DNA of 64,000 nt from Loxodes magnus (taxonomy: Eukaryota > Ciliophora > Karyorelictea > Loxodida > Loxodidae), in the NCBI GenBank assembly GCA_946699065.1, contig CAMPDV010000201.1:124001-188000 (forward strand). The letters are read 5' to 3'. A program made the position numbers and the translations under genes. How positions within the stretch are numbered: position 1 is the stretch's first letter; each line of letters opens with the position of its first letter. The notes under the pieces were generated by a model, which ran no database searches, had not been told where the DNA came from, and saw only the letters and a list, made by a program, of their open reading frames with translations. Below are positions 8,900 to 62,960 of this stretch, one piece after another.

Positions 8900-9565
8900 A
8901 AGTACTTTAAGAACTTCAAGTTATGTAATTATAAAATTATAAACTCCTAAGAACAGTATAAGAACTAGAAAGAAAAATAGAATATCTGATAACTAACTCA
9001 CAAGAGAAAAAAATTAAAATAAACAGTCAGTAAATAACAGAATAGAAAAATTAGAAGAAAAATTCAACCAATTCGCAGAGTTAACTGAAAGCATATTCAA
9101 ATAAAAAATATAATTGAATGATCCGATTTATGTTGAGCAACAGTCCACAACAACTTTCATTCCGTATCTAAAAATAATGAGATGCTGGTACTGCAAGCGA
9201 CCAGGGCACAAAGTAAGAAGCTGCTTCCAATTTTAATTAAAAAATAAATAAAAAACTAATGGGAAAATATTTTCAGAATCTATTATACTTAAGAAGGTTA
9301 ACTGCATAGAAAAAAATACTACAACTAAAAAGTGAAGCTCCTTATATCTAATAGGCGGTTAACGAATACAATTAAAAGTGACTGGGATTTGACCTATCGG
9401 AAAAGATTATAAATAACAATCTAAAAATTACCAAGATTTATGATAGACTAAGTCCAAACAAATTTGAAGTTGATATTTATACCTAACTTTAAACTTAAAA
9501 GTGGTTAGTCTAAAATTGGCAGACCCACTATAATCAATTATTTATTTATTTATATATAATGTTCT
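8900..9565 (+). mobile_element. Short retroelement: CCHC zinc-knuckle ORF1 fragment with 3' hairpin and (TTTA)n tail
   Basis: The frame ending near 9340 encodes a polar coiled stretch (IEKLEEKFNQFAEL) followed by MRCWYCKRPGHKVRSC at about 9180-9225. This is a perfect Cys-x2-Cys-x4-His-x4-Cys zinc knuckle as in ORF1/gag proteins of non-LTR elements. The 3' end has a hairpin at 9500-9529: outer arms AGTGG/CCACT, inner arms GTCT/AGAC. ATAATCAA and a (TTTA)n tail to about 9560 follow. The layout (hairpin, TATAATC, TTTA repeats) is that of the other elements listed at 36663, 41872, 50127, 54171, 56319, 57443 and 62770, but with different stem bases. Lies between two RT fragments of opposite strand, so probably a nested insertion. 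Confidence 0.7.
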
Positions 9566-10490
9566 GGTGTACTTTCCATCTATGATTAATGAAGAATTTA
9601 GGTTTTTGTAAAATGATTCTAAGGCTATTATTATTCCAAGGGTAGTTTAACTCTCTTAAGTTAACCAATCAAATTCTATTGAGTCAAACATTTTTTCAAC
9701 ATCTATCAGTGTTGCTATCAATTAAATCTTACCTTTAGCGCGTTTTCGATAGTTATCAATTATTACTTATATTATTCAGATCTATTAAGTTGTTTATCTG
9801 TTTTTCATAAATTCCATTTATGAAGGATGAATCAAATTTCTCTAATAAATCAGATTGTATAATCTTTTTGTTAAAGCTTTATCATACAGTTTTAGAATAG
9901 TATTAATAAAGGAAATAGTTCCTAAATTTATCCAATCATCTTAATTTCCTTTTTAAATATTGGAATTATCACTGATGCATTTAATTTCTAAGAGATTTTT
10001 CCAAGTCTTAGCATATTATTCAGAATAGAATGAAGAACTATTAGCAAATATTATCTTATGAAAATTTAAGACTTGTAGAAATAAGTTTGAGAATGAGGAT
10101 TTTATATGAATATTAAAAGACTTATAGCTCATCACTAATAACCTAAAATGGTTAAATTTATTTTTAAACATATAATGTAAAAATTCAAAAATTCAAACTT
10201 GCCTCTTTATTCCAAATTTCTTTGAATAAATTAATTCTTAGAATTCTTAAAGCAATTAAGCCTGTGCTTGTTAGTTCCCCATATTTTTGTTTGATATTTA
10301 TAAATACATTTAATAAAGCATTACGATAACCTCAACTAAAGATATTTTGCAAGCTATTTCTAACAATTTCGGTGATGCATGCTTAATGAGGTATTTATCT
10401 TTATATATTTTTCTTAGAATAATTGAAGCATGAATATACATCATTTCATCTATGATTTCCTCATAGATCTAATCCTAATTGCATATTTAC
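9566..10490 (-). pseudogene. LINE reverse transcriptase fragment (fingers and motif A)
   Basis: The minus strand carries SVIIPIFKKGNQDDW (about 9965-10000), the N-terminal RT signature 'PIFKKG..DD', then ISFINTILKLYDKALTKRLY and, after frameshifts, TLIDVEKMFDSIEFDWL (about 9665-9720). The last is motif A with the first catalytic aspartates (D-x-E-K-x-F-D-S-I). Upstream (to about 10490) EEIIDEMMYIHASIILRKIY may be the preceding linker of ORF2. The fragment stops near 9566 against the tail of the zinc-knuckle element, before motif B. Several frameshifts; not functional as it stands. Confidence 0.75.
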
Positions 10491-11640
10491 TTTTTTACAA
10501 TTTATTGACTATAAAAATTCTTAATAAACCAATTTAAAAGAGATCTAAACAATGCTAAGGAAAAAATTGTTTAAAACTAATTCTTTCAAAATTGAAAAGA
10601 GTAAACAAATTTAATTTCCTTTATTATATAATTCCTTAATTAAGCACATCCTATCTATCTATTATATATTAACTACATTTAACTACTTTTTATTTACATT
10701 TTACTTTTTAGTTAAGATAACTTTGCATATAACTTTCATAAATTTAGAAAATAATACAATTTTCTATACTTTACTCCTTTCTTATATCTTCAGATCAACT
10801 TTAAATAATTAAATTAAAATAAAATTCTTATATTCACATTTTAAAGGCTCACAGTAAAACTTACACTCTTAAATATCAAATTATTATCAACATGAATGAA
10901 CTTTTTAAATGTTGACTCATAAAGGTTCAATAAGTTAATAAGTGTAAAATAAAAGGAGAAAAAGATTGTATTATATCTAAAATAATAGGCTAAGAAGATT
11001 GTATAGTGAGTGTTATTTACTTTAGTTTGCTTATAAAAGATAATAACATTATAACTCTTATAATTATCTAACTTTTTTTGTTTTTATATTATGTTTTCTA
11101 TTAACTTTTAGTGCATATAGATATAGTAATATAGTAAAACTTAGCTCTATTATAATAAGAGTCTTTTTTATATTATAGATAAACTATTAAAAGCCTTAGT
11201 TTCATTAATGAATTCCTTACTCTAATTTTTAATTAAATCATTTTTAAATTTATTTAAGAGAGAATAGCAATGAAAGTGGGAAATATTTAAAATTTTTGAT
11301 GTATCAAATAGAATAAAAGAAGTGTTATTGATTTCTATTAGAGCATAGAAACAGAAAGGAAAATTGGATTTGATTTGGAGGATATATTTAATTATATGAT
11401 ATTAATATCATTTGAAAATATAACAAAACACATTTAATTGTGAAAAATTTACATAATATCGAAAATAACTAACAAATCGGAGAGAAATTAATTAACTTTC
11501 TTAGATGGTAAACAATACATGAAAAATCTATTAAATAAAGATAGTCTTTATTATTAATATTTAAGTTTATAAAATGCTCATTTTAAACTTATTAAAGGAT
11601 AAATATGATGAGAAAACTAAAATTTTATAATAATAATATA
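10491..11640. other. AT-rich region without recognised gene
   Basis: No conserved motif seen. A + strand stretch near 11270-11400 could be read as protein, but nothing in it is recognisable. Confidence 0.4.
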
Positions 11641-12460
11641 ATAATAAATTTAATTAAAGTGTTTATAGCTTTGAGGTATTTCAACCTCATTTCCACTGAC
11701 ATCCAGTGATCGCTCCTGGATGCTTAAAAAAAGTTCGGGTCACCCAGTTTTTTCGGAGTTCTGGAACTCGATCAGAAAATTTTTATCTGCAAATTCTTCC
11801 TTCCATCGTCACATAAATTCTTTTTAATTCTCTTCAGACTTCTTCGCTGTTTCTCTTCATCTTTTCCTTGTATATCTTGCAACTCTTGAATCTATGGAAT
11901 CTTGATTGCAAGGTAACATCTCTTGAGAATCCTTCTAATATAGGTTAGTTCTATTTGCCTATCACCTTCTACCTTCATTATTATCTCTTAGATTAGAGGT
12001 TTTATTCTTTTTTGTCCAAGCCTCTTTACTTCGATTTCTTATTTGACTAATCTTTCTTCAGTATTTTAACTTTTTTCTAATAATTTTTTATTTTCTTATC
12101 TTAAAATTTTCACTTTTTCTTACAGAATATGTACAGATTTCAAAAGATTTTCAATTAATAATTATTCTTCATTTGTCTGTTTTTGCATAGTTTTTGGATT
12201 CTCTTATTTCCTATAGTTACTTGATCTCGGTTTAGGAAGAAAGTCAATACTTTATTATTAGTTTTATTCATTTATGCTTATTTAAGTTCTTGTTTTATCT
12301 AAGATTGTCTTTAATTTTCTACTATTGGAGGTCATTAAGATTAAGAAGATTATTATTTTATTAAAGAAGACGTGATGGATGAAGAATTAGAAGTCTCTGG
12401 TTTTTGCACCTTTATCAATGGAGCCTGCAAAAAACCCTTCTTAAGACCTTCTACCATTTT
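11640..12460 (-). mobile_element. ORF1-type retroelement ending in a chain of perfect hairpins (family A)
   Basis: A minus-strand ORF starts at 12457 with MVEGLKKGFLQAPL, close to the starts of the ORFs at 39328 (MVEGFKSGFF) and 42037 (MVSFKKGFYTTSS). A coiled-coil region rich in K, E and Q follows (QENKKLLEKSQNTEERL), then a basic C-terminal part (KDEEKQRRSLKRIKK). There are frameshifts. The 3' third contains five perfect stem-loops in a row: 11757-11770 (GAGTTC/GAACTC), 11737-11745 (GGGT/ACCC), 11700-11722 (CATCCAG/CTGGATG), 11694-11708 (CACTG/CAGTG; exclusive with the previous one) and the terminal TGAGGT/ACCTCA at 11672-11689. An ATT-rich tail follows (11630-11655). The terminal hairpin matches those at 40219 and 28562. 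Confidence 0.7.
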
Positions 12461-12722
12461 TTATATATTAAACTTTTATATTTAAGATATTTAATTATAA
12501 TATAGAAATAAACAATAAATATAAAAATAAATAGAAAATTAAGACATTATAGCAACAATTTTTATTAATAAATATTGTTAAAATAAAATTTTAAAAGCAG
12601 ATTTCTTAAAATGTCAAGTTGGTTTAAAATTAGAGGGTCATAATTTTTATTTTAGCTTGTTTAATTAATTTTATGAAAAAGAAATAAAAAACGTTTTAGT
12701 GCTAACAAAAGGTCCTGATTTC

Positions 12723-15087: not shown

Positions 15088-15160
15088 TGCCGAAACCAGG
15101 GATTGAACCAGGGACCTTTAGATCTTCAGTCTAACGCTCTCCCAACTGAGCTATTTCGGC
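15088..15160 (-). tRNA. tRNA-Phe (anticodon GAA)
   Basis: Complete cloverleaf on the minus strand: acceptor arms GCCGAAA/TTTCGGC, D arm GCTC/GAGC, anticodon arm TTAGA/TCTAA around loop CTGAAGA (anticodon GAA), variable AGGTC, T arm CCTGG/CCTGG-complement with TTCAATC loop, discriminator A at 15088. Internal promoter boxes are intact (TAGCTCAGTTGG and GGTTCAATCCC). T runs just downstream at 15084-15087 and 15074-15078 would serve as the RNA polymerase III terminator. No intron. Confidence 0.97.
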
Positions 15161-18492: not shown

Positions 18493-20133
18493 TCATTCTA
18501 AATCAGGAAAATCTTCTTCATTAGTTTCTAAGGGAATTTAGCTTACAACTGGATTTAAACAGATCATTTATTACTTTGTTGATTGCTTTAATTTACTAAC
18601 TTCCACTACAACTTTGTCTTTATCAGTCTATTAAACATTTTTTATAAACCCATTCATTTCTTCTTCAAATTGCTTCACTACTTGTTTCTGTTGCACTTTT
18701 TTACTGTAATGTTGCATAAATTCTATTCCCTACTAAATCTCCTATTAAGCTTGCTAAATTTATCCTTTTTGAACTGCTTCAGATGCTTTATTCTTTACAC
18801 ATATCTTTACTACTTCACAGTTCACATTTACTTCTTCTTCCTTGAAAGTAGCCTTTTAAATATGATTTTTTACTACTAAGTATTTCTTTTTTGTCTCAGT
18901 ATCAACATACTCGAATTAGACTTAGAAGACTACTTCTTTCTAATCTTTATTTAGCATTTTTCCTTAACCTGACTCTACAAAATTTACCTATTAGTATTAT
19001 TAGCCCCATTATTATTAAGTATTAAATTCAAAAGAGATTAATGAACCTTCATAAACATCATCCACTTACCAACTCATAGAATTTTTTTGACTAGATCCAA
19101 ATTGAAAGTTCTCAGTTAAACTACAATATACTTTAGCACTTTCAGCTCACATTTAATTTTCTAGGATTTTTTCTACATTTTCTGTGAATTCTTAAGCCTT
19201 TATTTTATTTAACTATCCTACTTATTCTTAAGTTTCACTTCCTTCACTATTTTATGTGACTTTTTCAGTTAGCACTCTTAAGTTCTCTAAATCACAATTG
19301 GAATCTCCGAAACCTAGAACTGATATATCAACATGCTTTTACTTCGCTATTTCGGAACATTGCTTATAAAACGCCGGTCCGCTTAAACCTACATTTGCCA
19401 ATCCATCAGTTACTAATACTATTTTAGATCCTAAATGTCCTTCACCTGCCATTTAAATAGCTAAAAAAAGAGCAGGACCTAATGCAGTTGATCCACCTGC
19501 TCTAATTTAATCTACTTTATCAAGTAGTATTTATCCACTTTCTTTGATTGGCAGCTAGATATACTCTCTCAAATTATTTTGATAATAGTTTATTATTTAT
19601 TATTAACTACTATCGCCTGAAAAAGAGAATACATTGAGATGGCCATCTCCATAAATTCGAATATTCTCATCAAAAAGTATTAATCCTACTTTATAGGTAG
19701 GACTATTCGTTATTAAGTTATTTATAACGGTTTTTAATTATTTCTTCAATTCTTCTAAGTGAGAGTACATTGAGCCTGAAATATCTATAACAAATATAAT
19801 ATAACTATCCTTGGTTTGATTAGGTCTGCTTTAATCTTCTAGCTCAATTTTATATTCTAAAGGAATTTGTTCTAATTCTACTTTTAGGTTAGTTATATCA
19901 TTTTCATACTTACAGGATTCGCATATCCATATCTTATTACCTTATCTTATACTTATATTACTGTTTCTATTAAGAGTTCTAGGACAATTGTTACACTTAA
20001 TGAAACAATTTTAATTTTTTACTTGAGGCTAATTAGCTAAATCCTGAATATTAAGCACTCCGAAATTATTAGCCTTTTAACTCGTTAAATCATTGCACAT
20101 GCTCAAAATTGTTTTATCCTTTGCTAAATACAT
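18493..20133 (-). CDS. Sec23/24-type zinc finger and von Willebrand factor A domain protein
   Basis: Intact, intronless, 546 residues plus TGA. Residues 47, 50, 71 and 74 form a Cys-x2-Cys ... Cys-x2-Cys finger (CNNCPRT ... WICESCKY) like the zinc finger at the start of the Sec23/Sec24 core. A VWA domain follows with a complete MIDAS site: DISGS at 117-121, RAGGSTALGPAL, then KIVLVTDGLANVG, and ISVLGFGDSNCDLENL. A beta-rich segment follows, then a Gln/Lys coiled region (QQAQQEIQQGIEFMQH). The pairing of a Sec23-like finger with a metal-binding VWA resembles Sec23/24 trunk architecture. But the gelsolin-like end is not evident, and Sec23/24 usually lack a full MIDAS, so it may belong to a ciliate VWA family rather than to the COPII coat. 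Gln is UAA/UAG throughout; one internal TGA reads as Trp (QMWAES). The gene shows no frameshift, unlike most neighbours. Confidence 0.85.
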
Positions 20134-21039
20134 ATTATACTTATCATAAAAAAAAGCTTAAATACTGTAATGACAATAAAAAAAATGGCTTTACAAAAGA
20201 AATTATTATATATTTTCTTAATTACTTTATAATGATTAAGATTCTTTTATAAACTTAGCTTTTAGAACTATCATTAAAAACTATTCACTTGAAAAATGTA
20301 TTATAATCTCAAGTTAACCTCACTAAAATCTTAATTTATTCTAAAATAAATAAATTTCATTCTTCATTACTTTATGCTTGAACTTTTATATTATATTAAA
20401 TAGAATAATTTATTATCATTTTTCATTTATTTTAAGGTAAGAAAATTTCGTAATTGAAAATATTTTTTATTGGTAAAACCTTTAATAAGTATACTTTGCT
20501 ATCTCATCTTACTAAAATGAGCCTTTTTATATGATTTCTTCATATTGCTAAGTAGCTTTATAAAGACTTCTTTATTTAATTTCTTCTTATACTATGATCA
20601 TTCAAGTTAAATTTTAAAATTGCATTAGTTTGTCTTTTATTATTTATTCATGCTTGTACTAAGAAAATGTCAACATTATAAAAAGTTTTATTTTTCACTA
20701 TATACTCTCACAGAATTCAAAATAAAATGCTAAATAATGAGATTAAGATAGAAATGTTCATTTATGATATAAAAAGCAAATGCTTAATTAATTATTTACT
20801 TACAAGTAGTTTGAAGATTTATCTTTCACACTTCAAAATCAAATAAAACCAAGTTCCCTTCATTGTTTATATTTATTTACGTCTTTTTTCTTTTGTTCTG
20901 GTTCTGTTAAATTAAATATATGAAAGAAAATTGATAATAAGATCTTTTAAAATTTACCATATTCTTTAATAAAAAGTTTCTAAGTGTATTAAAGATAGAG
21001 TTTAGTTGAAATAAAAAGCTTTCACGCCGAACAATAACC
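20134..21039. other. AT-rich region without recognised gene
   Basis: Upstream of the VWA gene and downstream of the hypothetical gene on the same strand. Nothing recognised. Confidence 0.4.
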
Positions 21040-36614: not shown

Positions 36615-36700
36615 TTTATTATATTAAAACGATAGATAAATAAATAAATATAAAATGATTATAGAGCTAGTAGCACCTCATTGGCGCGCAGCTCTTTCAA
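36615..36700 (-). mobile_element. Minimal 3' stub of a hairpin-tailed retroelement
   Basis: Only the last 50-80 bases of an element: hairpin 36663-36695 (outer arms AGAGC/GCTCT, inner arms GCGCC/GGTGC with a G-U pair), then TATAATCA and a TTTA-type tail. Same design as the copies at 41872, 50127, 54171, 56319, 57443 and 62770. An extreme 5' truncation, lying just past the end of the WD40 gene. Confidence 0.75.
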
Positions 36701-36834
36701 TATTAATATTTAATATTAAGAAAAATCTTCTCATGTTTCTTGTTAAAATTCTAGAAGTCCAATGAATCATGTCAGCTTTTCCAAATGGGGAATCTTCTTA
36801 TTAAAAATTATTCTTAAATCTTGAGTCAAATGCT

Positions 36835-37974
36835 TCATTATTCTTGAATAAGGTCCAAATAAGAATTAGTTATTAAGTTATTAATTAGAAGAACGTCAGT
36901 CAAATTTTCATACTGCTAGAGAGAACCCTCGGGGTAAGTTAGGCATGTCTCAACGGAGGTTATCCATCCTTCCTGGTCCTTGCTTAATGCTATTGAATTT
37001 ACTTCTTAAGTATTGCCTGAGAGAGTTTATATACATTCTCCTGTTTAGAAGTTCCATATCTTGATTGTCTTGTCTCAAGAACCAGAAAATATAGCACTTG
37101 AGAATTATTAATTTGAATACTAAACACAACATTTGTGTGACCTGTAAGAGTTCGAATACATTATCCATTCTAAAAGTCCCATACTTTAATTGATTAATCA
37201 GCAGAGCATGATATTATATATTTATTATCCAGTGATAAGATTATCTATCCAATCCAGTTTTAATGATCAGTCAGAGTTCGAATAAGCTAACCAGTCTAGA
37301 AATCCCAAATTTTTATCATTGTATCTCGGCTTCCCGTTACAATTCATTTTTGGTAACTGGTTATTGCTACCGATCTAATTGAATGTGTATGTCCAGTCAA
37401 AGATCTTGTACAATTTCCAGTCTGGAAATCCCAAATCTTTATTGTTGTATCTACACTTCCCGTTAAAATTAATTTCTGGTCACTTGTTATTTTTACTGAG
37501 TAGACTCAATTCATATGTCCATTCAAATTTCTCGTACAGATTCCAGTCTAGAAATCCAAAATTTTTATCATTGTATCTCGGCTTCCCGTTACAATTCATT
37601 TCTAGTCTCTTGATATTTCTACCGAGTAAACTCAATCCGTATGTCCATTCAAAGTTCTCATACAGCTTCAAGTCTGAAATCCCAAATCTTTATCGTTTTA
37701 TCTCAAGATGTTGAAATAATTCATTTCTGGTCTCTTGATATTACTATCGATAAAACTTCCTATAAATGGCCAGTGAAAACTTAATCCAAAATATTAAATA
37801 ATAACCTTAATTTTAGTAATAATTGATTTTATTAACAAGTTTTTAAAAACACAAATTGGGTAAGATTTCATATTTAAAAAGAAGAAGAGGTATTCTGCCT
37901 AGGGAATCAATTCTCTGTCTTAACAGTTTTCGTAAAAAAATAGTTTTAATAAATTGAATTTCTTTATTTTCCAT
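36835..37974 (-). CDS. WD40-repeat protein with the kelch-family N-terminal module
   Basis: Starts MENKEIQFIKTIFLRKLLRQ, then LLLFKYEILPNL, matching the N-terminal module of the three kelch genes. About six to seven WD blades follow: KWIISTSWDKTIKIWDF, GHTDWVYSVEISRDQKW, IVTGSRDTMIKILDFQTG, GHMNWVYSVKITSDQK, LTGSVDTTIKIWDFQTG, IVTGSRDTMIKIWDFQTG, IISCSADQSIKVWDFQNG, FSGSWDKTIKIWNFQTG. TGA encodes the conserved Trp in GHTDWVYSV and in SWDKT, which fixes the genetic code. About four one-base frame breaks. The end is taken at the TGA at 36835-36837 after DLIQEQ; reading through it would reach about 36710. A scaffold beta-propeller; partners unknown. Confidence 0.8.
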
Positions 37975-40280: not shown

Positions 40281-41632
40281 TTCTTTCTTTCTTTTGATTT
40301 TATATAGTTTTATAAAATTTTAATAGAATTACATTTCATAATGTTCAGTTCTATTCATATTATAAATTATAAATCTTTTATTGTCCTCATCAAAAACTCT
40401 TAATAGTACCAATGTGTTTTAGTTAATTTATTCTATAAAAGTAATAATTTACTCAATTTTTATCGTATCTATTTGTCGCTCTTCAAATTTATTATTTTTA
40501 ATGTTATATCCTTTCTTGATATTTGGTTCTGAGTTGATAGTATAGATATTTTAAAAATGTGTAAGTGTTTTAATATTTGAGTATATTTCGTATTTGACTA
40601 CATCTATCCCAAATTTCTAAAATAGTTGACTAGTATTATAAACTTTTCTTAGAAGTTTCCTAAGATAAATAATCTAAATTTATTTCTGTTTACTAGGCAC
40701 TTAAATTTATTTTATTTTTTATAAATAAATACTGATGCAGTTTAATTATTAAAACAGTTACTTGTAAAGTTCTCTATTTATAATTTTATTTCTTATTGTC
40801 AATCTTAATATTTTTCTCTTTTCTATATGAATGAAGTAGAGTCTTTATAGTTACTATAATCACTTCTTTTTAATTTAATTTCATTAAATCTAGAAATAAA
40901 ATGTTGCTTATATTGGAGATTATTATAAACTAAGCTTAAATTAAAAGCTAGATTTAAGCATTACCTTTATCTCACTTAATTGAAAATGAGATTTATTAGA
41001 AGGTACAAAACATATTGATTGAGAGATTTAATTAATTTTAGCTTTGGATTCACTAAAAGATAAACTAATATGTGAATAAAATAGTTGCTTTGAGTTATAA
41101 CTCTTCATAATTATAAACTCAAAATATAGAAAAAGATGAGATAGATTAATAACTTGAGCTAATGAAGCAATAAATATGCGAAATCTTTTTTGATAAAAAT
41201 GGAAATAATACAAGAACTAAATCCTTAAGATATTTAAATTTTAAATGATTTTTATGCAAAGATAAGGGTAAATTAGTTTTTTTATTTTAATAATCAGATA
41301 CAGAAATGCAATCTTTAAATATTATTTACGAAATTTCCTATCATTTTTTGCATAGAGATTTTGCTGCTAGTTTTTCATTTAAAATAGTAAAGTAAATTTA
41401 TCTTTTTATAAACTTCTTTATTTTATCTTATAATGAGAAAGATAAGTCTTTTAAAATAGCCTTAGAAGACTTTGATTTAATTTATAATTAATTTATTTTT
41501 ATGGTATTAAATCTTATCTGTAGACTATTTTAATCCCTTTCACTTTATTAGCATTTTTTCTTAATTGAGTAATGACATTAGTTAGATTATTTTAAATATT
41601 TATTTAACTTTTTATTATATAATTTAATTTAA
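40281..41632. other. AT-rich region without recognised gene
   Basis: No motif or repeat recognised. A minus-strand frame at 41028-41213 has no support. Confidence 0.4.
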
Positions 41633-41633
41633 A

Positions 41634-41925
41634 TATGGTGACATTGTCTTCAAAAGGTTAGGAGAAGTTTTCTCAAAGATGAACTGACTGAGAAACATGC
41701 CTTCTAAATGTTGGATCAGACTAATCTCTTCTTCCTGGGATGGAGATCTACCTGTAATCCCTTGTTGGTGTTCTATGCTTTGGAGAATTGGAACTGCAAC
41801 CTTGCTCACAATTAAAAGAGAAAACGCAAAGGGAATATTGGAGTTTAAAGACTTAAAAATTAACTTTTTAAAGAGATGCGCCCTATTGAAGGGCTACGCC
41901 CTCTATAATAACATTTTTTTTATGA
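41634..41925 (+). mobile_element. Truncated hairpin-tailed retroelement (family B)
   Basis: GC-richer block beginning ATGGTGACATTG. It shares a core with the copies at 54.2, 56.2 and 62.9 kb (TTCTTC ... CTATGCTTTGGAG). It ends in a hairpin at 41872-41904 with outer arms AGAG/CTCT and inner arms GCCC/GGGC, then TATAATAAC. The inner stem differs from its relatives in both arms and so stays paired. The tail here is T-rich rather than clear TTTA repeats. Confidence 0.65.
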
Positions 41926-43400: not shown

Positions 43401-43569
43401 GGGTAAAAAAGCTAAAATCTAACATAAGAAATAAGAAAAATACAAAATAGCATAATGTAAATGTAAGGAAAAACGTTAATAAAGAAAAAAGGAAAAAAGA
43501 ATTGAACGAGTTTAAGAAGAAAAAGAATAAAATGCAGGATAAAAGTGAGAAATAAGAAACAAATTGAAA

Positions 43570-44210
43570 CAAACTTCAATTAGAATTTACTATGCTAAGA
43601 AACCAAAAAGCAAAAAAGAGCAATTACCCAACAACAATTAATAGGAAAAGGCAAAAGAAGAAAAATAAAATAAATAAGAAGAAGAAGAAAAAGATATATA
43701 ATAAGTGGAAAAATATAAAAAAGGAGAAATAACTAATAATGAAGAGAATATAGAAGCAGAGAATGATAGATAAGATGAAAGAAAGGTGGAGTAGGAAGAT
43801 GAATAAAAAGAAGAAAGTGATGAAGAGGAAGCAGAGGAGATGGGCGAAAAAGAAGAATAAGAATAAGTCATAAAAATAGGGGCAGAAAATGTTAGGGGAG
43901 TTAGAAGTGCAAAAGAGGCACTAGCCAAATTCATGACTCAAAAAAGTATCCTCATAATGACAATATAAGAGATTTAGATTGAAGACTAAAAGGATATGTG
44001 TAATATAGCAGGATATAAAAACTTAATAAATGTGGGGTAAAAAAAAGGGAAAGGAGTAGCGTTCCATATTAGAAACAACGCATGTAAGGAGATCAGAGAA
44101 ATATAGAATGAAGTCAATTAAATGACGCTTTTTGGAGGACCCTCTATGCACATTTAAAAAAAAAGCTTGAATAAAACTATGACATTAAAAAAATAGCCAA
44201 TAAATTGGTA
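43570..44210 (+). pseudogene. LINE ORF2 N-terminus: acidic stretch and AP-endonuclease part
   Basis: A Lys/Glu/Gln-rich leader (KEEKQNKQEEEEKDIQQVEK) leads into GAENVRGVRSAKEALAKFM (catalytic Asn motif, about 43881). Then SILIMTIQEIQIED (the QE motif, about 43963) and GQKKGKGVAFHIRNNA. These are the first two motifs of apurinic-endonuclease-like domains, which nick target DNA in LINE retrotransposition. The GDFN and SDH motifs are not seen before the frame decays at about 44200. The copy at 45050 carries the rest of such a domain. Confidence 0.65.
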
Positions 44211-45049
44211 GCTCGATATAAATGTTTGTCTGAGTTAAATAGATCTACATCTTCAGTAGTTTAGAATACAAAACAGACGGTGTTATAAACTTTAAAAAGA
44301 ACGACATGAGTGAATGAAAATATGAACACATATTTAGAGCTTAGTAATGAAGAGAATCAGGAAAAATATCCCAATAAAATTAATTTTAGAAGTATTAAAG
44401 ACTAAACTCAATCACCTAGTTATCCGAAAATATAAAGACTGCCAATATCTGTGAATAGTATGAATCAATAAAGAAGGAATTAAATTATAACAGAAATAGA
44501 CAACAAGATCGAAGACTTTTAAACGTGAAAATCTCAATATGATAATAGAACAGATATTTCCACAAAAAAAATAGGGAGAATTCTGAAAATTAAAAAGACG
44601 CAAATAATGAAAATGCAAAGAAAGAATAGCATAGTTAATAAAGGTAAATTTGAGCATTAAAAAAATGGATGGATTTAATTTATGTTGAACTTACTCATAG
44701 AGAAAGATTCTTTTTAAAAAGCACAATAAATCGTTTAAATGAACAAGATGTGAGGAAAATATTACGAATTTTTCCTAGGAAGATACAAAGCATAAAGTAA
44801 AGCATAGTGAAAAAAAAGGAAGAAACAAAAAGAATATAGTTAGCAAGTCAAATTATTTAAATAGTTTAAAGATTGTTGCCAAGAATAATTTCAAACAAAA
44901 TATAACAACGAAGAGTAAAATAATTAGGCAAATAAAAAATACAGACACACCAAAAACTACAAATGCTAGAAAATTTTGGATTTAGTAATTTAAAAGTAAA
45001 TTAGACCAAAGAAGAAGAAACTGTAATAAAGAAATAATAAATCAAGCCA
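44211..45049 (+). pseudogene. Degenerate LINE interior
   Basis: Sequence between two endonuclease pieces, with the LINE's high A content on the + strand. Some protein-like runs (EGIKLQQKQTTRSKTFKREN near 44470) but no motif that I can name. Probably eroded ORF2 or a junction between two copies. Confidence 0.35.
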
Positions 45050-48971: not shown

Positions 48972-49829
48972 TATTTATTACACTTAATTTATAATCTTTA
49001 ATTAAATAATTTTAAAATTAATAAAAAAGATAAATAATTTATAACAGTTTGATTTTTAATTTGAATGCAATAAAAACAAAAATCTAGAAAATTAAAAAAA
49101 TTAAGAAAAAATAAAAATTTTAATAAATTAGTTCTAATTTAGAAAATAATTTAAATTAATTAAAAACTAAATTTATTATAATTCAATCAAAAATGTCTAA
49201 TATTAAATTTAAAATAAAGCTAAAATAGCTTGTAATCTAATACAGCAAATTAAAACTTATTTAATTAAAAAAGTAAAATAAAATTTGATAGTAAATAAAT
49301 AGATAATAATTTGCTATAATTTAATTAAATTATGATTAAAAAAATAAATATATTTATATTATGCTTTAATTTTTAAAAGTTAAATAAAATAAACTAAAAT
49401 TAAAAAAAGTTAAATTTAATTTTAAAATGCTAAAATATAAATTAAATTAAGATATATTCACTTTTTGACTTTAACTAACACATATAATTGTTTAATCTTC
49501 TGCTTAACTCCATTTTTTCATACCTAAGACAAATAAATAACTTAAATTTAAAAAATCTTAAAATAATTTAATATTACTCAAAATGAAAATAATTAACAAG
49601 CCATTAATAAATAGTAGTTAAATAAAGCAGACTATTAAATTAAAATAATCATAAATCAAATTTAAATTAGAAATAGTAACAATAAAATAAGTTTAAATTA
49701 AATAAAATTAATCTAAGATAACTTATTTGCTTAAAATAATTTAACTTAATTTGAACTAATCAATTTATTATAAATTACTAAATCTTAAAAATAAGTTTAA
49801 TTTTAAATTATTTTAATTAAATTTTTTTA
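48972..49829. other. Extremely AT-rich low-complexity spacer
   Basis: Almost only A and T, with repeating TTTAAATTAA-like words. No gene or element recognised. Confidence 0.5.
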
Positions 49830-50190
49830 AAACCGCCATAGTTGCTCGAAGGTGAACAACAAGGTCATCTTCATCAGAGGTTGGGGAAGTTAAGTACCCA
49901 TAATTGACACATGTCGTCCTCTGCTTTGGTGATGCAATGAGACACAATCCTGCCATGTCTTTGAATCTTCAACAAGTATTAAAGATTACAAGTATTCTGA
50001 AATTATATCAGTATTGAACATTTTTATCAATACTGAATAATTATACCAGTATTGAACAAGGTTTATCAGTATCTGATAATTTTATCAGTAACAAACATTC
50101 TTGTCAGTATGAAACATTCTTTTTAAAGAGCTGCACACCAACGAGAGTGCTACGCGCTCTATAGTCAAATTTATTTATTTTATTTAATTC
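49830..50190 (+). mobile_element. Short hairpin-tailed retroelement (family B, SINE-like), copy 1
   Basis: Begins AAAACCGCCATAGTTGCTCG, nearly identical to the copy at 56996. It shares with the longer family B copies the core TTCATCAGAGGTTGGGGAA ... ACCCATAAT ... GCTTTGG. Then come six tandem units of about 19-20 bases beginning TATCAGTAT (50006, 50025, 50043, 50064, 50083, 50102). The terminal hairpin (50127-50160, arms AGAGC/GCTCT) and TATAGTCAAATTTATTTA tail follow. No coding sequence is apparent. It probably depends on a LINE that recognises the 3' hairpin. Confidence 0.75.
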
Positions 50191-50620: not shown

Positions 50621-50624
50621 ATAG

Positions 50625-52615: not shown

Positions 52616-54149
52616 ATAAGATTTTCAAGGTATGTAATAAAATTAGGATTGAAATTTATCTATATAACATTCAACTAAAAATTAAGAGCTTAATTTAGAG
52701 AAATAATTAAGTTCTTATCTAAGAAAAGTTATTTAATTTAGTTAAATTTTCGTAATTGATGCATTTAATATTTTTTACATTAAAATGTAATTTTTCTAGC
52801 CTTAAGAGCAAATATAATATTTAAATAATATAAAGAGAATTACTAAGCAATTTTATACAGAATAGGCTTGAATTAAAATTAGTGTTAATTTTAGCATATT
52901 AAGAAGCATAGTAGCATAGTAAAATAATAAGTTAGAATTGAATGTTGATAGAATAAGAATTTAGAATATATTTGAATATTGTAAATAATGAAATATAAAA
53001 ATGAAAGTTTTGAATAGATGCTGAAAACTAGATATGTATTATAATATGAAATCTTAATATATTATATATAATTAAATAAAATAGAATTAATTATTTTAAA
53101 TTATACTATGCTAAATTAATTTTATTTAACTAACTTTATTTAGCTATTTTCTTATATTTAAAGCTCTTTTTAATAAATTTTTAAACTTAGCATTATAAGT
53201 TTTTGATTCAAGTTGGTAAAGTATTATTTATTTAAGATTAGCATGTCTAAAGATATGTGTAATTTAAAAATAAATGAGTTAAGTATATAATATGCTTATA
53301 ATGTATTTAATATTAATGACTTATAATAATAACTAAAGTAGGAATGAAATAATAGTAATAATAGGATAGATAGAATAAAGGTATTAAATAATAATAAAAA
53401 TTAGTAGATATAATGTATCATATCTCTATAGTACTATAGTATTACTATTATTTACTTAAATATAACCTTTATATTATAATTCTCAAATATTTATTACACT
53501 ATTTATTGCTTCATTATATAATACTACTTTACTAACTTTAAATCATATTATTAAATCACAAAAACCACTTAACATTACAAAAAAACAGGAAATTGCTAGC
53601 ATTAAAGTGATAGTACAATTTTATTTAGTTTTTAATAGCAAAAGTTAAATATTTAAATGTTCCTTATTTTATTTTTATGTCTAATAATTCTATAATTATA
53701 CTAAATTATCTATAACTAGCTACATTCGCTACTTTTTATTAAATTAATGCTCAACTATATTTTTCATATGATTGCATCTAAATTTTTATTTTAAAATTTC
53801 ATCTTATTTTCCTATTTTCTTTTAGATAAAGAAAAATATTAAAAAGTTTAGGAAATTTACAAAGATAAATTAAAACTAAATTTTATTTTTAAGAAGCTTT
53901 TTATAGTAATCTTATTTTAAGCTATCTCAAGTTAATTTTAATATAATTGACTGTCTTTTTAATTTTATTTAAAATGTGTGCAATTCAATTTATACCAAGC
54001 TTCTAGAATGCCAATAACTATTGTTATATTTAGAGTTTTTGGTTTATACTTTTAGCGAATATAATAATCTTTAAAGGTAAGATTATTTTTATTATGATAA
54101 CTTATAGAAAGAATGTTAATTTAAAAAGAAGGGAAAAGATAAAAATGAT
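52616..54149. other. AT-rich region without recognised gene
   Basis: No motif, RNA gene or clear repeat. Confidence 0.45.
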
Positions 54150-54530
54150 TAAATAAATAAATTCGATTATAGAGCGCGTAGAATTCTTGTTGGGGCGCAG
54201 CTCTTTAAATTAATTTTATTTAATGTCGAAATTTATTTTTATAGGTCTCTCTTTCCTTGTTTCCTCTTCCTGTAGTACGTCCCTGTAATTTTTCCTTCCA
54301 AAGCATAGAATGCATTACGCGATTATGGGTGCATCTTTTCCAGACCTATAATGAAGAAAGTTTTCTCCTGGTATTCAGCGTTCTCCAGCTTTTCGAATTT
54401 TCCTTCTCTTGTAATTAGTTTCTCTTCCTCCGATTTATCCTCCGTCCGCGCTCATTTTTTAGTTACCTTACTGGGCCTCCAATCAGCATCTGAAGGAAAG
54501 GTCTTTCCACCCTATTTAAAAATATTTGTA
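54150..54530 (-). mobile_element. 5'-truncated hairpin-tailed retroelement (family B), left arm of an inverted pair
   Basis: Reading on the minus strand: body with GACCTTTCCTTCAGATGC, a frame with EKLITREGKFEKLENAEYQE and KTFFIIGLEKMHP (perhaps the C-terminal end of a LINE ORF), ATTTCGACATTAAAT, the terminal hairpin (54171-54204), TATAATCG and TTTA repeats. Nearly identical to 55998-56390 in opposite orientation, about 1.45 kb away. Confidence 0.8.
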
Positions 54531-55997: not shown

Positions 55998-56390
55998 ATT
56001 ATAATTTAAATAGGGTGGAAAGACCTTTCCTTCAGATGCTGATTGGAGGCCCAGCAAGGTAACTAAAAATGAGCGCGGACGGAGGATAAATCGGAGGAAG
56101 AGAAACTAATTACAAGAGAAGGAAAATTCGAAAAGCTGGAGAACGCTGAATGCCAGGAGAAAACTTTCTTCATTATAGGTCTGGAAAAGATGCACCCATA
56201 ATTGCGTAATGCATTATATGCTTTGGAAGGAAAAATTACAGGACGTACTACAGGAAGAGAAAACAAGAATAGAGAGACCCATAAAAATAAATTTCGACAT
56301 TAAATAAAATTAATTTAAAGAGCTGCGCCCCAACAAGAGTGCTACGCGCTCTATAATCGAATTTATTTATTTATTTATTTATTATCTCCA
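55998..56390 (+). mobile_element. 5'-truncated hairpin-tailed retroelement (family B), right arm of an inverted pair
   Basis: Same sequence as 54150-54530 on the other strand, with only scattered differences. Starts at AAATAGGGTGGAAAGACC and ends with the hairpin at 56319-56352 (outer arms AGAGC/GCTCT), TATAATCGAA and five TTTA units. A frame with KLITREGKFEKLENAE and FFIIGLEKMHPQLRNALYAL is kept in both copies. Confidence 0.85.
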
Positions 56391-56990
56391 TTTTCAAAAA
56401 CTTTAGGAATCATATAATTTATCTAATCAAATTTTTCTAAAAAGCTAGGTATATAATATATTGATATTGGCTCCATAAAAGAGATTAGATCCTTTATAAA
56501 CAAAAAAATAAAGGATTGCTTTTATAGTTAATCTGATTATTAAAATATTACATTTTGTAAAAGTAAATCCATAATAGCAACTAAATATTCTATTATAGAT
56601 ATATATATATCTATTATTTATCCATCTAATTTTAAAGCATTTAATATGATTTGATTCAACATATATAGTAAAGTTGTTTCTACTACTAAGATTTATAGGT
56701 AGATTCTAAATTTTTAATTTATAGAGATTGATTTTATATTTTAAATCTAAAGAATGAAGTTTATTAAATGTATGTAATAGTTAATAGTTAAAATCCTAGT
56801 TAAGGTTTGCTTTTAAGAAATATTAATTACCTTTAAAAGTTGATATGCTACAATACTGTTAAACTAAATTTCCAAAAGATAAATAAATTGTTAAAATGCT
56901 TAAAATTCTACCTGTGTATTGATAAGAGAACATTTAAATCTCTTTTATAAAGAAATAATTAGAAAATATTAAAAGTAATATTATATATAT
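56391..56990. other. AT-rich spacer
   Basis: Nothing recognised. Confidence 0.4.
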
Positions 56991-57500
56991 TTTTTTAAAA
57001 CCGCCATAGTTGTTCGAAGGTGAACAACAAGGTCATCTTCATCAGAGGTTGGGGAAGTTAAGTACCCATAATCGACTTTATGTCTTCCTCTGTTTTGGCT
57101 TGGCCTCAAGACATAAGATTCTTAGACCTTCGGCACTGGCTTAATTTGGACTTAATTCTGGAACGAAAAAGAAATAATATTGCGAGCTTCATCAGAGGTG
57201 GGGAATTTAAGTACTCATAATTGACACGTGTCGTCCTCTGCTTTGGTGATGCAATGAGACACAATCCTGCCATGTCCTTGGGCCTCCAGCAAGTATTAAA
57301 GATTACGAGTATTCTGAAATTATATAAATACTAACATTTTTATCAGTACTGAATAATTATACCAGTATTGAACAAGGTTTATCAGTATCTGATAATTTTA
57401 TCAGTAACAAACATTCTTGTCAGTATGAAACGTTTTTTTTAAAGAGCTGCGCACCAACGAGAGTGCTACGCGCTCTATAATCAAATTTATTTATTTATAT
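56991..57500 (+). mobile_element. Short hairpin-tailed retroelement (family B, SINE-like), copy 2, partly dimeric
   Basis: Begins TTTTTTTAAAACCGCCATAG like copy 1 at 49830. The core unit TTCATCAGAGGTTGGGGAA ... ACCCATAAT occurs twice (about 57037-57077 and 57188-57222), with about 110 bases between them that copy 1 lacks. The second unit continues as in copy 1, with CAATGAGACACAATCCTGCC, the 20-base tandem units (57322-57431), the hairpin (57443-57476) and TATAATCAAATTTATTTA. Confidence 0.8.
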
Positions 57501-57944
57501 GGAAAATATAAACTATATGGAAAAATGAAAAGGATATAAATGTATTCTATAATTGAAGGATGCATGAAACTATAAATGTAAAGAAGAAATAAAAAAATAA
57601 TTTTGCTAAAAACTAAAATTCATCTAATTCCTAAAATTATTTTGCAAAGGATTATTTTATAATAATTATAGATGAATGATAATTTATCTCATATTACAAT
57701 AGACAATATCGAAATGATAGTTGTCATTGTTTTAAGTTATGCAAAAAGTAAATTATATTGTTGATACTTAAACTAAAAGGAAGCTTTAATTTTCTATTTT
57801 TAGACTCTTTAATATATAATTTCTATCCTCCATAGCTTACCTTATAAATAAGATGTAATAGTAAATGGATAAGGTACTTATATGTCATTTTATATTAAAT
57901 AAAAAATAAAAGATTCAATTATTTAGCCAATTTTAATTATTTAT
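57501..57944. other. AT-rich spacer
   Basis: Nothing recognised between copy 2 and the end of the third receptor gene. Confidence 0.4.
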
Positions 57945-60482
57945 TCATATAAGTTCTTTGCTTTGTAAGTTTTTTATACTTTGTTTCTTCTCTTAATCAT
58001 GCTAACTTTCAAAAAAAATCCCTTAAACATTTTCCTATATTTCTGTGTTAACTCTTTTTTGAAATAAATTGTTGTCTTACTAAGTTATTTCGACAGCTTT
58101 TATAGAGTTTACTTACTTTTCAATATTATTTACTTCTCCTATCTCATCTTCAATTTTTTACTTTTATAGTGCAGTATTCGAATCATCGGTTCTGTTCATA
58201 GTATTCTAAATCGGAAACTCTTGAAATAAAAATTAATTTCATTGATGTTCAAAACATTGTGCTGGAAATAGAACTGAAGTGAATAATATTTCGGATAGAA
58301 TAAAAAATCTTGACTTCTTAACTATTTTTCAGCTAAAAACTGTCGAAAGTTGTAGAAAATAAGCTATTTTTAAATATAGTAATAGATCAAATTTTCGTTC
58401 TTGTTGCATTGAAAAGTTCATCGAAATAGATATGTTTCATCTAACTCAAAAATGGTGATTAGAGATTTATACTTATTATAACACTTTCATCCAATCAAAC
58501 TGGTTATAATACAAGTTACAATAAACGAGATTATAAAGATTCCTATTTCAGCTTTTTATTAAGAAAAAGAAATCTTAAAAATAGAAATAACTGCATAGTT
58601 AATATTAAATGAGAGAACTATTAGTTTCAGAAGTTCAGCTTTTCATAGCAGCATGATTGAGTTTTGTAAGTATAATAGAATAAAACTATTAAACATGCTA
58701 AATAAAGAATGCAAGTAATAGTTTACTTTACTACTAAGTAAGCAAGTTTATTACTACTAGTGTCATCTAAAATAATCGATATATTATTAAATAGTGATTT
58801 TTATATTTAATCTACATTAAATACCATAAAGCTCTTGCCATAATAAAACTGTTCTAGTTGCAAACAAAATGTATAAAATCTAGCAGATAGAGCTTAAAAT
58901 TAAGAAAAGGAGGTGAGTTCCTCATCCGCATTTCCAATTACAATCTTTATATTGATAAGATTCAGAAAATTCTTAAATTTAGTTATGGTTTCCAATCCTC
59001 AGTTTCCACACACATGAATAAATCCATAAAATTCCAATTTAAAGGAAGACAAAGCTATAAGTAAAAAAAGAACCTAAATAGTAAGAAAGACTTCCAATTA
59101 AGTATATAAATATCCATTTTTAGAATTATAATATTAATAGAATAGAAACGAAACTTATAAATCATATTAGAGAAATAGGGCAAGCAAATAACTAATTTGC
59201 ATAATATTTATTATTAAATCCCTCGAATATTTTCATAAAATATAATTTCGCACAATTTCCTACGAAATCTACAAGATACTCATAGTCAGAGATATCAGGT
59301 CCTACTGAAATGATTTACAGGAAATATAAAAATAAATGGAGAATGTAAATAAAATCTCAAGTGGACATTACGAATACTCTGTCTAATTTAATAAATTCGT
59401 ACTTATTTTAGCTTCTGATTTCTTTGATAGAAACTAATGCTAAGACAATTAGCATGCTAATAAAAACTATATACTTAACTATTTTACCTTTTGTAAATGA
59501 TTATTTTTCTCTTTCTTTAAAAGAACAAGATAGTTATCAAGAGTCATGAAAGACTCTTGTAGTTCCATCTATTCACATAAATGGTTTTTTAAAGTCAAAA
59601 ATAGCATCAAAAATGAAACAATATACTCCAACTTGCTAAAGACTTCATTATTAATTTTCATTTTTACGATAGTTTATAATTGATCAAGGTATAGAAGCTT
59701 TACCATTTAAGGAAGAATCAATACTTACTTTTCCAGTGGATTCTAAAAACTTCACGCTTCTTATTGCTTTTATAATATTTTCTTAATTCGTGTAATTTTG
59801 ACCAGATTCAATTAAGCTTTATAAGGCTTGTGCTCCTAAAAGAATTCCATCAAATTCAGCATAAAAAAGGTTTGATACTGCTGTAATATTGAAAAAATCT
59901 TGCAGAAGATTCTATTTTTTACCCAAAATCTCCAATTCCTCCTACAGAATCAAATTAAATTGCTCCTTTCACTACTGATTCTACTTTATAAACTTCTTCA
60001 CCTTATTGCAAAAATCCTTAGTTTAACCATGAAAAAGCTATTAATTCAAAATTACCTTCCCTTGCTTCTAAGTCGTATAGGTATTTTAATATTATCCTAA
60101 CATTGTCATCATAAGCTACTAGAAGTAATATTATTGTGTTTTATTATATATTTCTTATTTCTTCTTTCCAAGATTCATAAAAGACTCTATTTTTATATCA
60201 TTAATTGCTCTGTTTTCGTTGACTATATTTATTTGAAAATTACTTGATTCATGGTAAAAATAGTCGTATACGCCTTTTGATCATGCTGTATCTTAGTAAT
60301 TACTCCTACATTTTTTCAGCCTTAATAACGACATGTTCAAGATGCTAAAACATCCGAATAAGCATCACTGGCAACTGTTCTAACATAAAACGGAAATTTA
60401 ACTTTGTCTGATAAAGCTGGGGCTGAATTACTGCCTGAAAAAAAGGGGAACTATTCACTTCACAATACTTCCGAGACTCTAA
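57945..60482 (-). CDS. Third receptor-like membrane protein, 5'-incomplete and frame-broken
   Basis: The first recognisable part (60482 downward) is FFSGSNSAPALSDKVKF, PFYVRTVASDAYSD, YQGWKNVGVI, a textbook ANF/PBP1 inter-lobe region. Lobe 2 follows (IILLLVAYDDNVRIILKYLY, NFELIAFSWLNQGFLQ, FYAEFDGILLGAQALQSLIE). Then come membrane spans (KIVKYIVFISMLIVLALVSI, SVGPDISDYEYLVDFVG as in TALGPD of the first gene) and a tail ending QSIKNLQSKELI-TGA. Frame breaks at 60438-60444, 60274-60277, 60179-60182 and 59892-59897 are each mended by one base in an A/T run. Only one ligand domain is seen; the first lobe and signal peptide are missing or too diverged upstream. Either a shorter family member or a truncated one. 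Confidence 0.7.
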
Positions 60483-62750
60483 AATTAAAATTTTACTAAA
60501 ATTTAGGAATAAAATATTGAATTAAGGAAATTAAAGGGAAACTATTCCCTTAAAAGTTTTGAGTTAAATTTAGAAAAGATCTTGAAATAGCTTAAGATAT
60601 ATTATTATAATTCTAAGCTGCAAAGTAATTTAAAATCTGAAATAATTAAGTATGATTATCATTTCTTATTAAATATAAATATACTAGATAATTATAAATA
60701 TTGGTTTATGAATATTTACAATTGAAGGTTCTTTAGAAACTCTGCCAAATCTTTTTAGATTTATATAAAATCCAATTGTGGTTACTGCTTGATTCTCATG
60801 CTTGTGTAAATATATTTTAGTTTTTTATAGAAATTTTAGTCAGTTTTTTAATTTAGCTACCTACTTTAATGTTTTAATTACACTTAAGGTAATTTTCACT
60901 AAGGGAAAGTATTTTCATATTCATATATTTTTTAAGAAGAAGCCCATCGGATATCAAATCAAATTGTTTCTTCTTAGAGAAATTCTGATGCTTATACCAT
61001 CAAAGATTGAACGAAATTATAAAGAGATTAATAAAAAAATCAAGTAAGCAAGATTATGGTCAGAAACGAAAAGAGGGTCTAGCAATACAAGCATAAGCAA
61101 TATTCATTTAATCTGTATATTCTACGCAATAAAATATAATGGCCATTTTAATTTTTTTCTTAACTTTAAGTTAATATCTTCAAGTGGAATAATATACAAA
61201 CTTTACGTTTGATGAATTTTAAATGGGAATAGCAGTTTGTTCTCATTATATAGATAAAATAATTTAATTAAGAAAATAAGGTAAAGCACATATTATATAG
61301 CCTATTATTTTATATTTTGCGCTATAGTTTTTTAAAATGTGAGAAGGATGTAAAATAACCTAAACTTTTATATATAGGATTAATGTTTAACGGATGATAT
61401 AAAACTCTTGCTTAAAAGAAAGCTTAATGATTTATTAATAAGCAATATATTTATTATATTTCTTAAATTATACCTACTAAATTTTAAAATTAAAGCCTTT
61501 TTATCTTTCATATAAAGCTTAATATTGTATATTTGACTAAGCATAGTTTTTATTTATAAACTACTAATAGAATAATACCAATTTTAGTTAATTTCTAATG
61601 ATTTATTTCATTAAAAGTGTTTATTTAGTTAAATTTATGTCTTAATTAGCTTGCTTAATTTCTTTCATTTGGTGTCTGGTTAGACATTATAATATCTTAT
61701 TCTGACTAAGTGATATCATTTAAATGGAATTAATTTAGTAATTCCTAAAATTAAATTACTTTTCTTTAGCTTTTATTTCCTTTAGTTATACTAAAGATAG
61801 TTAGAATCACTGTGCTTATTTTCTTAATTATCTAAATTATCATACTCTAAAAGCTAGGGAATGCAGATATTAACCGTAGTTTAAAAATTACAATTATATG
61901 GAAATCTAATAGATCAAGCAATTTACTAATTTAAATCCCCAAATCAGTTGGAAAGAAGGATATATAAAGCTGAAGCACATCAATTAGTAAAAATTTATCT
62001 TGAAATAATCCAAAAGAATAAGCAGACTAAGAAGATAAATAGAAGAGTATAATAACACATAACACATTTAATTAATTAATTAAACAAAAGAAAAAGAAAT
62101 AGGAGAATTATGGCAGTGAAAGCTCATTGTACAATTAGATAGTTATAAAATATAAACATAATGAAGATACTAAACTGATGGATAATAAAAATTATATAAA
62201 ATGATGAATATTAAACTTATTTTATTTATTTGCATCATTTATTTTATGTATAATGCATATAATGGAGAATAATAAAATTAATAGTAAGACAAAGTTGTTA
62301 AATAAAAAGATTAAATTAATTCAAACATTTAATAAGAAGCATGTTAGATAAACTTTAAAATTTTACTTGAGAATTAAAAAAAATTAATTGTAGTTAAGCA
62401 AAATAAAAAAGAACTTATTTCAAATAAATTAGTTTTTTTATTAAAATTTAAAAATGAGATTCGTTTTATTATAATTTATCTAGATTGTAAGCTTTTAGGA
62501 ATACCTTTTCTGAGTAAAGAATTTTAATGCTTTAAATTTATAAATTAACCTTTTATCTTAACTTATTTTTGGCATAATATTTTTTACTTTCAGATCATTC
62601 TAAAAATTTATTTATTCCTCACATTTTGATCTTATTTAATTTAAAACAATTCTATAAAAGTCTAGAGTTGATAGTTTACTATCCAATCTATTAGCTTGCT
62701 ATTAATTTTAGGAGTAATAAAAATTAAAATGAATGGAATATTTTAATTTA
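60483..62750. other. AT-rich region without recognised gene
   Basis: No conserved motif. The frame at 60802-61047 (+) has no support and may overlap lost 5' parts of the receptor on the minus strand. Confidence 0.4.
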
Positions 62751-62751
62751 T

Positions 62752-62960
62752 GCAAATAAGATGGATTATAGGGCGTGTAGCACTCTCGTTGGTGCGCAGC
62801 TCTTTAAATTATTTTATTTAATGTCGAAATTTTTTTTATGGGTCTCTCTATTCTAGTTGATTCTTCCTGCAGTACGTCCCTGTAATTTTTCCTTCCAAAG
62901 CATAGGATGCAATATGCGATTACGGATACATTTCCCCAACCTATGATGAAGAATAATAAT
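62752..62960 (-). mobile_element. 5'-truncated hairpin-tailed retroelement (family B)
   Basis: About 200 bases. On the minus strand: TTCTTCATCATAGGTTGGGG, CCTATGCTTTGGAAGG, ATAGAGAGACCCATAAA, ATTTCGACATTAAAT, the hairpin at 62770-62803 (outer AGAGC/GCCCT, inner GCAC/GTGC), TATAATCC and a short A/T tail. Shares its last 200 bases with the pair at 54.2 and 56.2 kb; the outer hairpin arm has one mismatch. Confidence 0.8.

Follow-up and report, generated by a model that had tools for sequence, protein, structure and literature searches.

A 3′-terminal hairpin common to LINEs and short non-autonomous elements in the ciliate Loxodes magnus

The eel long interspersed nuclear element (LINE) UnaL2 ends in a 3′ stem-loop followed by short repeats, an end common to the LINE and an eel short interspersed nuclear element (SINE). 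The stringent-type L2-clade elements ZfL2-1 and ZfL2-2 of zebrafish are of the same kind, and in ZfL2 the region between the endonuclease and the reverse transcriptase (RT) is reported to bind the cognate stem-loop, with swapped stem-loops abolishing retrotransposition (PMC4176376). Here we analyse a hairpin that ends eight elements in a 64-kb stretch of the karyorelict ciliate Loxodes magnus (positions 124001–188000 of contig 201; hereafter the window, within which all coordinates are given), and follow it across the genome. Loxodes has the same arrangement, a 3′ stem-loop with short repeats behind it on both LINEs and SINE-like elements, whereas the hairpin sequence, the repeat unit and the host differ.

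A plant system is also close. In maize and sorghum, LINE1-1_ZM, a stringent-type member of the L1 clade, is reported to share a 3′ hairpin with ZmSINE2 and ZmSINE3, with compensatory changes in the stem (PMC3747384). The Loxodes LINEs resemble that account in being of the apurinic/apyrimidinic endonuclease (APE) type and in having a 3′ hairpin that is common to SINE-like elements and carries compensatory changes; the plant SINEs, however, are listed there with tRNA promoters, whereas the Loxodes heads match no tRNA.

Among ciliates, Paramecium is described as carrying non-LTR elements with APE and RT domains and short 3′ repeats, putative SINEs, and zinc-finger-ended elements that consist of open reading frame 1 (ORF1) only and are held to be mobilised in trans; 92% of its transposable-element copies are placed in the germline-limited part of the genome (PMC5405496). 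SINE-like partners in ciliates are therefore not new in themselves. The Loxodes assembly, in contrast to the mostly germline-limited copies reported for Paramecium, is macronuclear. The words ‘hairpin’ and ‘tail’ are absent from the main text of the Paramecium paper, the main text of the Loxodes paper (PMC11441545), supplements aside, mentions neither SINEs nor a hairpin, and the text of Ohshima 2013 does not mention ciliates, Tetrahymena or Paramecium. Our literature searches, which lay outside subscription journals and supplements, returned no paper that describes such a hairpin at the 3′ end of LINEs or SINEs in ciliates.

The 3′ ends of three Loxodes LINE lineages, A, C and B, consist of a two-part stem-loop, an (A/T)TAAT(C/T) box and a short repeat or T tail, in that order, and five short families (S1–S5) and ORF1-only elements (T2) have this hairpin or one like it at their ends. 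Stem changes between lineages affect both sides and leave pairing intact; the stems of copies within a family decay freely. It is highly probable, in our judgement, that the hairpin is the 3′-terminal recognition element of APE-type LINEs in this ciliate and has been copied by several non-autonomous partners.

LINE lineages that end in the hairpin

In NCBI translation table 27, TAA and TAG are read as glutamine. The 31 best-scoring HSP70 matches of the genome have frequent in-frame TAA and TAG and lack TGA, and table 27, with TGA as tryptophan or stop, is the code given for the 706-Mbp macronuclear assembly (PMC11441545). About 20 apparent stop codons common to the RT copies are therefore sense codons, and a dead element amplified in trans or repeat-induced mutation, both of which had been considered, were rejected. 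The HSP70 genes themselves stand in long, regularly spaced tandem arrays on contigs C45, C86 and C854.

A Pfam RVT_1 search of the genome (705.7 Mb, 7,843 contigs, the scope of all genome-wide searches here) scored 150 of 3,403 candidates. The 30 best were fetched as loci, and twelve further places from the 150 were picked as different or lower-ranked, four of them with 2.5–2.7 kb and eight with 141–241 nt. Of the 30 best loci (LINE A; mean RT-domain identity 98.3%), 29 have the hairpin about 1.3 kb past the RT match, and a hairpin of this kind ends 39 of all 42 RT-bearing places examined, the exceptions being L013, L065 and L082. Under table 27, locus L009, the one in which both domains were read, has an Exo_endo_phos_2 match (E 2.7e-11) and an RVT_1 match of 125 bits, with the RT motif AYADDLAL and a C-terminal C-x2-C-x8-H-x4-C motif. 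The best match of LINE A in the PDB, which contains few LINEs, is human L1 ORF2p (E 3e-22). An earlier note on the window, made from its letters, had suggested looking for a LINE with a YADD-type RT that ends in the hairpin, and LINE A is such an element.

In the sense direction the LINE A end, which we call type I, reads AAAGAGC-U-GC-GCACC-loop-GGUGC-UAC-GC-GCUCU-AUAAUC, followed by UUUA repeats. Its predicted folding energy is −16.1 kcal/mol, which none of 200 shuffled sequences reached; decayed copies of the hairpin fold worse. The outer stem is AGAGC/GCTCT, and L066, L083 and L084 end like LINE A. All five copies of LINE B (L063 and L077–L080; three distinct insertion sites by their flanks) end in CGTGGTGATCCAAATAAAGGTGGTACCACGATAATT, one letter being different in L077, with the outer stem CGTGG/CCACG. 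Both copies of LINE C (L064 and L081) end in AGTGC...GCACTTTAATC and a T tail, with the outer stem AGTGC/GCACT. The RTs are 70% identical between A and C, 52% between A and B and 49% between B and C.

The UGA of LINE A ORF2 precedes the hairpin by 12 nt in 25 of the 30 loci (the remaining five yielded either no exact motif or no hairpin), and host 3′ untranslated regions are reported to be short, with a median of 41 nt (PMC11441545). Both facts would suit a hairpin that acts in the host, in RNA 3′-end formation, in stability or as the context of a UGA stop, and not in reverse transcription. The hairpin is also carried, however, by short families that have no ORF2, and the five LINE B copies, read under the ciliate code over about 95 codons in L063 and about 20 in each of the others, show no UGA before it; we regard a host role as quite unlikely. 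The LINE B frame continues through hairpin and tail, with the first UGA in the tail (L078) or the flank (L063 and L077), whereas L079 and L080 show none over the length read. LINE RT domains also stand in tandem on contigs C5131 and C20, with a period of 2,532 bp or, in some cases, 2,504 bp, a spacing that suggests a satellite-like array of LINE fragments or an assembly artefact.

The eight hairpins of the window

We built a covariance model from 22 hairpin copies, seven of the eight window hairpins among them, and scored it at every window position with filters off. Its eight best matches are exactly the eight places that the earlier note had listed. The seven in the training set score 68.1–85.9 bits and the eighth, at 9494–9551, scores 24.9 bits (E 0.01) from outside it; the ninth-best match reaches only 19.7 bits (E 0.2). 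The model and the genome scan, which that note had proposed, bear out the existence of the hairpins: the canonical form AGAGC..GCTCT occurs 8,157 times in the genome and not at all in the reversed control. A first count, of the motif GCTCTATAATC, gave 10,851 (control 68) and was set aside as inflated, because LINE A ORF2 contains the motif in antisense in many loci and three of 20 fetched places (L050, L051 and L057) were free of the hairpin. Taken by itself, the occurrence of any 5-bp stem in front of ATAATC does not exceed chance in this AT-rich window (five matches against a shuffle mean of 2.5 and a maximum of 7), so the evidence is one of homology, and the stem alone is not used as evidence.

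The general plan described by the earlier note, a two-part hairpin followed by TATAATC and TTTA repeats, applies to most of the eight, with departures. The box is TATAATA at 41872 and TATAGTC at 50127, and the TTTA units within the first 32 nt past the box number three at 9500, five at 36663, one at 41872, four at 50127, four at 54171, five at 56319, three at 57443 and none at 62770. Of its outer arms, AGAGC/GCTCT or AGTGG/CCACT, six of eight pairs of arms are completely paired, but 41872 has an A-C mismatch at the innermost outer pair and 62770 one at the middle pair; inner pairs are broken in 54171 and 56319. The copies at 36663, 54171 and 62770 are on the minus strand. Two points of the note are not supported. 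The eight ends cannot serve as independent witnesses, being the 3′ ends of only five non-autonomous families with two hairpin types, and no copy is shown to consist of little beyond hairpin and tail, the shortest, 62770, retaining about 145 nt of body.

Short families without reverse transcriptase

Comparing the sequence upstream of 32 hairpin ends defined the families S1 to S4, and 41872 belongs to a further one, S5. All five have no RT, their bodies are largely different and their 3′ end is of the LINE type; the SINE-like partners expected by the earlier note are present. The four with window copies, S1, S2, S3 and S5, are roughly 300–470 nt long. S2 and S3 have one module of about 60 nt in common, at 75% identity; otherwise the S bodies differ.

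S1 has a body of about 340–390 nt. Its window copy, at 36663, comprises a type I hairpin and tail at 36642–36701 (minus strand; 72.2 bits in the covariance model) and a body at 36702–36973 (minus strand), shorter on the 5′ side than in other copies and 90% identical by alignment to the copy in L059. S2, with a body of 280–470 nt and a repeated module, has two window copies on the plus strand. The copy at 50127 has its type I hairpin and tail at 50121–50180 (79.1 bits) and its body at 49799–50120, which is 89–93% identical to the second copy, 57443; the latter has its hairpin and tail at 57437–57496 (85.9 bits) and a longer body with the repeated module at 56965–57436, 85–88% identical to copies in L046, L055 and L059.

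S3, with a body of about 305 nt, has three window copies, all with type I hairpins. At 54171, on the minus strand, the hairpin and tail (54151–54210; 70.4 bits) have a decayed inner stem, and the body (54211–54520) is 97% identical to that of the plus-strand copy at 56319. The latter has its hairpin and tail at 56313–56372 (80.0 bits) and its body at 55999–56312, 86% identical to the L055 copy. At 62770, on the minus strand, a hairpin with a decayed tail (62750–62809; 68.1 bits) adjoins a body shorter on the 5′ side (62811–62953), 86% identical to the copy at 56313. The segments 54143–54520 and 56005–56380 are 89–98% complementary, as would be expected if the elements were fold-back or terminal-inverted-repeat DNA transposons with the hairpins as their ends. 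That pair, however, consists of two S3 copies in opposite orientation, S3 is also found singly (L055 and 62750), the hairpin stands at one end only and is followed by a TTTA tail, and the same end follows RT genes, all of which makes DNA transposons an extremely improbable reading.

S4 (body about 250–290 nt) is diverged and has no window copy. S5 is the family of 41872, on the plus strand, where a variant type I hairpin (AGAGA/CCTCT, inner arms GCCC/GGGC) with a T-rich tail lies at 41866–41924 (68.9 bits) and the body at 41600–41865. Genome-wide, 40 matches to it were scored of 750 candidates; the 39 besides itself are 80–91% identical over about 290–350 nt and end near the tail, at query position 419–431 of 431.

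Type II and type III ends

The remaining window element, at 9500 on the plus strand, is about 740 nt long and differs in having an ORF with a zinc knuckle. Its body (8809–9493), the non-autonomous type II element T2a, is followed by a type II hairpin (AGTGG/CCACT), TATAATC and a TTTA tail at 9494–9551, a hairpin also found in its genome family. The ORF1-like ORF includes CWYCKRPGHKVRSC at about 9180–9227 (plus strand), a Pfam zf-CCHC match with an E of 0.02, under the family's cut-off. No RT was seen in this element. Ten further places were fetched, eight with type II and two with type III ends, and six of them (L067–L072) share the body of about 740 nt at 78–89% identity over 655–760 nt; L074 has a second, unlike zinc-knuckle body that carries the same hairpin. 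From its sequence, T2a looks like the solo-ORF1 elements described for Paramecium, which it would resemble in its zinc-knuckle ORF as well. Directly past the tail of the 9500 element, at about 9560–9775 on the minus strand, lies what appears by eye to be an RT fragment (QLIATLIDVEKMFDSI, as in L065) like that of clade D, the distant LINE lineage of L065.

Hairpins changed at position 38 of the stem gave 268 genome matches (control 13). Among the 100 listed, 50 are type II; pair 9-38 is T-A in 53 and T-G in one, and 43 keep A and are unpaired. The 54 paired variants comprise 50 of type II and four of type III.

Stem changes between and within families

The outer stem reads A-U, G-C, A-U, G-C, C-G in LINE A; A-U, G-C, U-A, G-C, C-G in LINE C; A-U, G-C, U-A, G-C, G-C in type II; and C-G, G-C, U-A, G-C, G-C in LINE B. 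In type III and in 41872 a single pair is mismatched, as A-C. Eleven type I and type I′ representatives, picked by hand and compared without a tree, have 124 of 132 cells paired, against 113.4 when shuffled, and nine two-sided changes against 2.4, a number that none of 5,000 shuffles reached. In the mixed alignment of 22 sequences, 91.7% of cells are paired (89.5% shuffled; 71.2% in the best slid register), with six two-sided cells against 1.4.

Genome counts of the middle pair point the same way. Beside the 8,157 canonical A-U hairpins there are 117 of the form AGTGC..GCACT (U-A), 49 mispaired AGAGC..GCACT (A-A) and 51 mispaired AGTGC..GCTCT (U-U), with reversed controls of 0 throughout and an odds ratio of about 380; these are copies and not independent events, because the U-A class is largely one lineage.

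Several results weigh against a recognition role for the hairpin. In 63 distinct S1-type hairpins of standard length, 637 of 756 cells are paired, against a shuffle mean of 638.5, and two-sided changes number 7 against 8.4 (one of the twelve pairs being fixed by the search pattern); there is no covariation here. In 39 distinct type I′ hairpins, the outer stem of which was fixed by the search pattern, the inner stem has 226 of 273 cells paired against 225.9 and five two-sided changes against 3.8. Independent double changes are few, at three outer-stem pairs (7-40, 9-38 and 11-36) and a few inner-stem ones. Elsewhere, no LINE with exactly the type II hairpin was found among the RT places examined; the SINE heads and bodies searched match no tRNA (ARAGORN, 14 loci) and no Rfam family; LINE A copy L013 lacks the hairpin, diverging right after the ORF2 stop, just before the hairpin position; no hairpin was seen near the end of the clade D LINE (L065; RT identity about 25%); an 11-nt direct repeat stands beside both ends in only two of 19 usable copies (S3 in L055 and minus-strand S1 in L054); and the hairpins at 50127 and 62770 fold no better than many shuffles (39 and 32 of 200 as good). 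Two related nulls belong here: no hairpin lies within the 241 nt fetched for L082, and no head derived from RNA polymerase III transcripts (tRNA, 5S or 7SL) was found for the short families, the only tRNA in the window being a tRNA-Phe gene (gaa) at 15088–15160 on the minus strand, identified by ARAGORN and Rfam.

A rival reading of the shared end is plain descent, in which SINEs arose by fusion to LINE 3′ ends, the letters are kept only through the youth of the copies and the stem has no role of its own. Arms do vary independently within S1-type and type I′ copies, the letters AGAGC/GCTCT are the same in most S families, and among 100 listed of 989 matches changed at position 36, position 11 is still C in 89 and the standard pair is kept in six, so that there is no compensation within type I. 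Yet LINEs A, C and B, with RTs only 49–70% identical, have fully paired 5-bp outer stems in which three pairs have changed on both sides, and the same last 50 nt or so have been retained on largely different bodies. We therefore judge descent without function unlikely, and retain recognition by the LINE enzyme as the probable reading. The earlier note's statement that the arms change together holds between families and LINE lineages but not within families, where the letters vary independently, an outcome that the note itself had named as a refutation; its reading of LINEs and SINEs was right in substance, although its proof by compensatory change among eight copies fails.

Tails and insertion sites

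TTTA units could be counted in 21 of the 30 LINE A loci and number two to five; several of these loci share flanks and so represent fewer than 21 insertions. With zero to five units in the window copies, the variability of tails that the earlier note had proposed to count is evident. L027 and L033 have a common flank and different tail lengths; one insertion therefore exists with two tail lengths. The survey of target duplications covered 23 copies, one without a landmark and three with a misplaced one; beyond the two usable copies with an 11-nt repeat, the other 17 have flanking direct repeats of at most 9 nt.

At two places the head of a SINE directly abuts the repeat tail of another element, in L055 at about 4525 (S3 after S2) and in L075 at about 960 (S2 after type III). 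These junctions suggest insertion into TTTA-rich sites, and the L055 case has the 11-nt candidate target duplication.

Other features of the window

In a fragment at 43549–44313 on the plus strand, which has no Pfam match, an acidic stretch is followed by the first part of the endonuclease region of LINE A (VIKIGAENVRGVRSAKEALAKF). A long ORF under the ciliate code at 19147–20319 on the minus strand, judged by eye to resemble a von Willebrand A-type domain (FVIDISGSM), is probably a host gene, and a 126-nt unit stands in three tandem copies, 78–82% alike, at 37291–37686.

Discussion

We infer, by analogy with the systems described above, that the hairpin is what the enzyme recognises and that the tail arises by slippage. 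The ORF2 protein of a LINE would bind the hairpin in the LINE's own RNA or in that of a partner, begin reverse transcription within the repeat tail where an AT-rich site has been nicked, and slip on that tail. Only RNAs with an intact hairpin would leave copies. The hairpin would be put to the test a single time, at the choice of a template for reverse transcription, and inserted copies would decay freely afterwards. This free decay would explain why the constraint is visible only between families.

More tentatively, the genome may hold a natural specificity series, in which LINEs A, C, B and maybe more each have their own covarying hairpin and drive their own partners (type I, S1–S5; type I′, further elements; types II and III, the ORF1-only elements), protein and RNA handle having diversified together. 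LINE B ORF2 may even be translated through hairpin and tail, with a stop borrowed from the insertion site. We hold this series possible but, on balance, doubtful.

Covariation in such elements is best read between families, since within a single family the signal is lost among thousands of decaying copies. The stringent LINE/SINE mechanism has been described in fish, insects, plants and certain protists; recognition of a shared hairpin would extend it to a karyorelict ciliate whose working nucleus keeps its retrotransposons. A cell with three related LINEs, each with a different hairpin, would offer ready pairs for testing how ORF2 proteins discriminate between RNAs.

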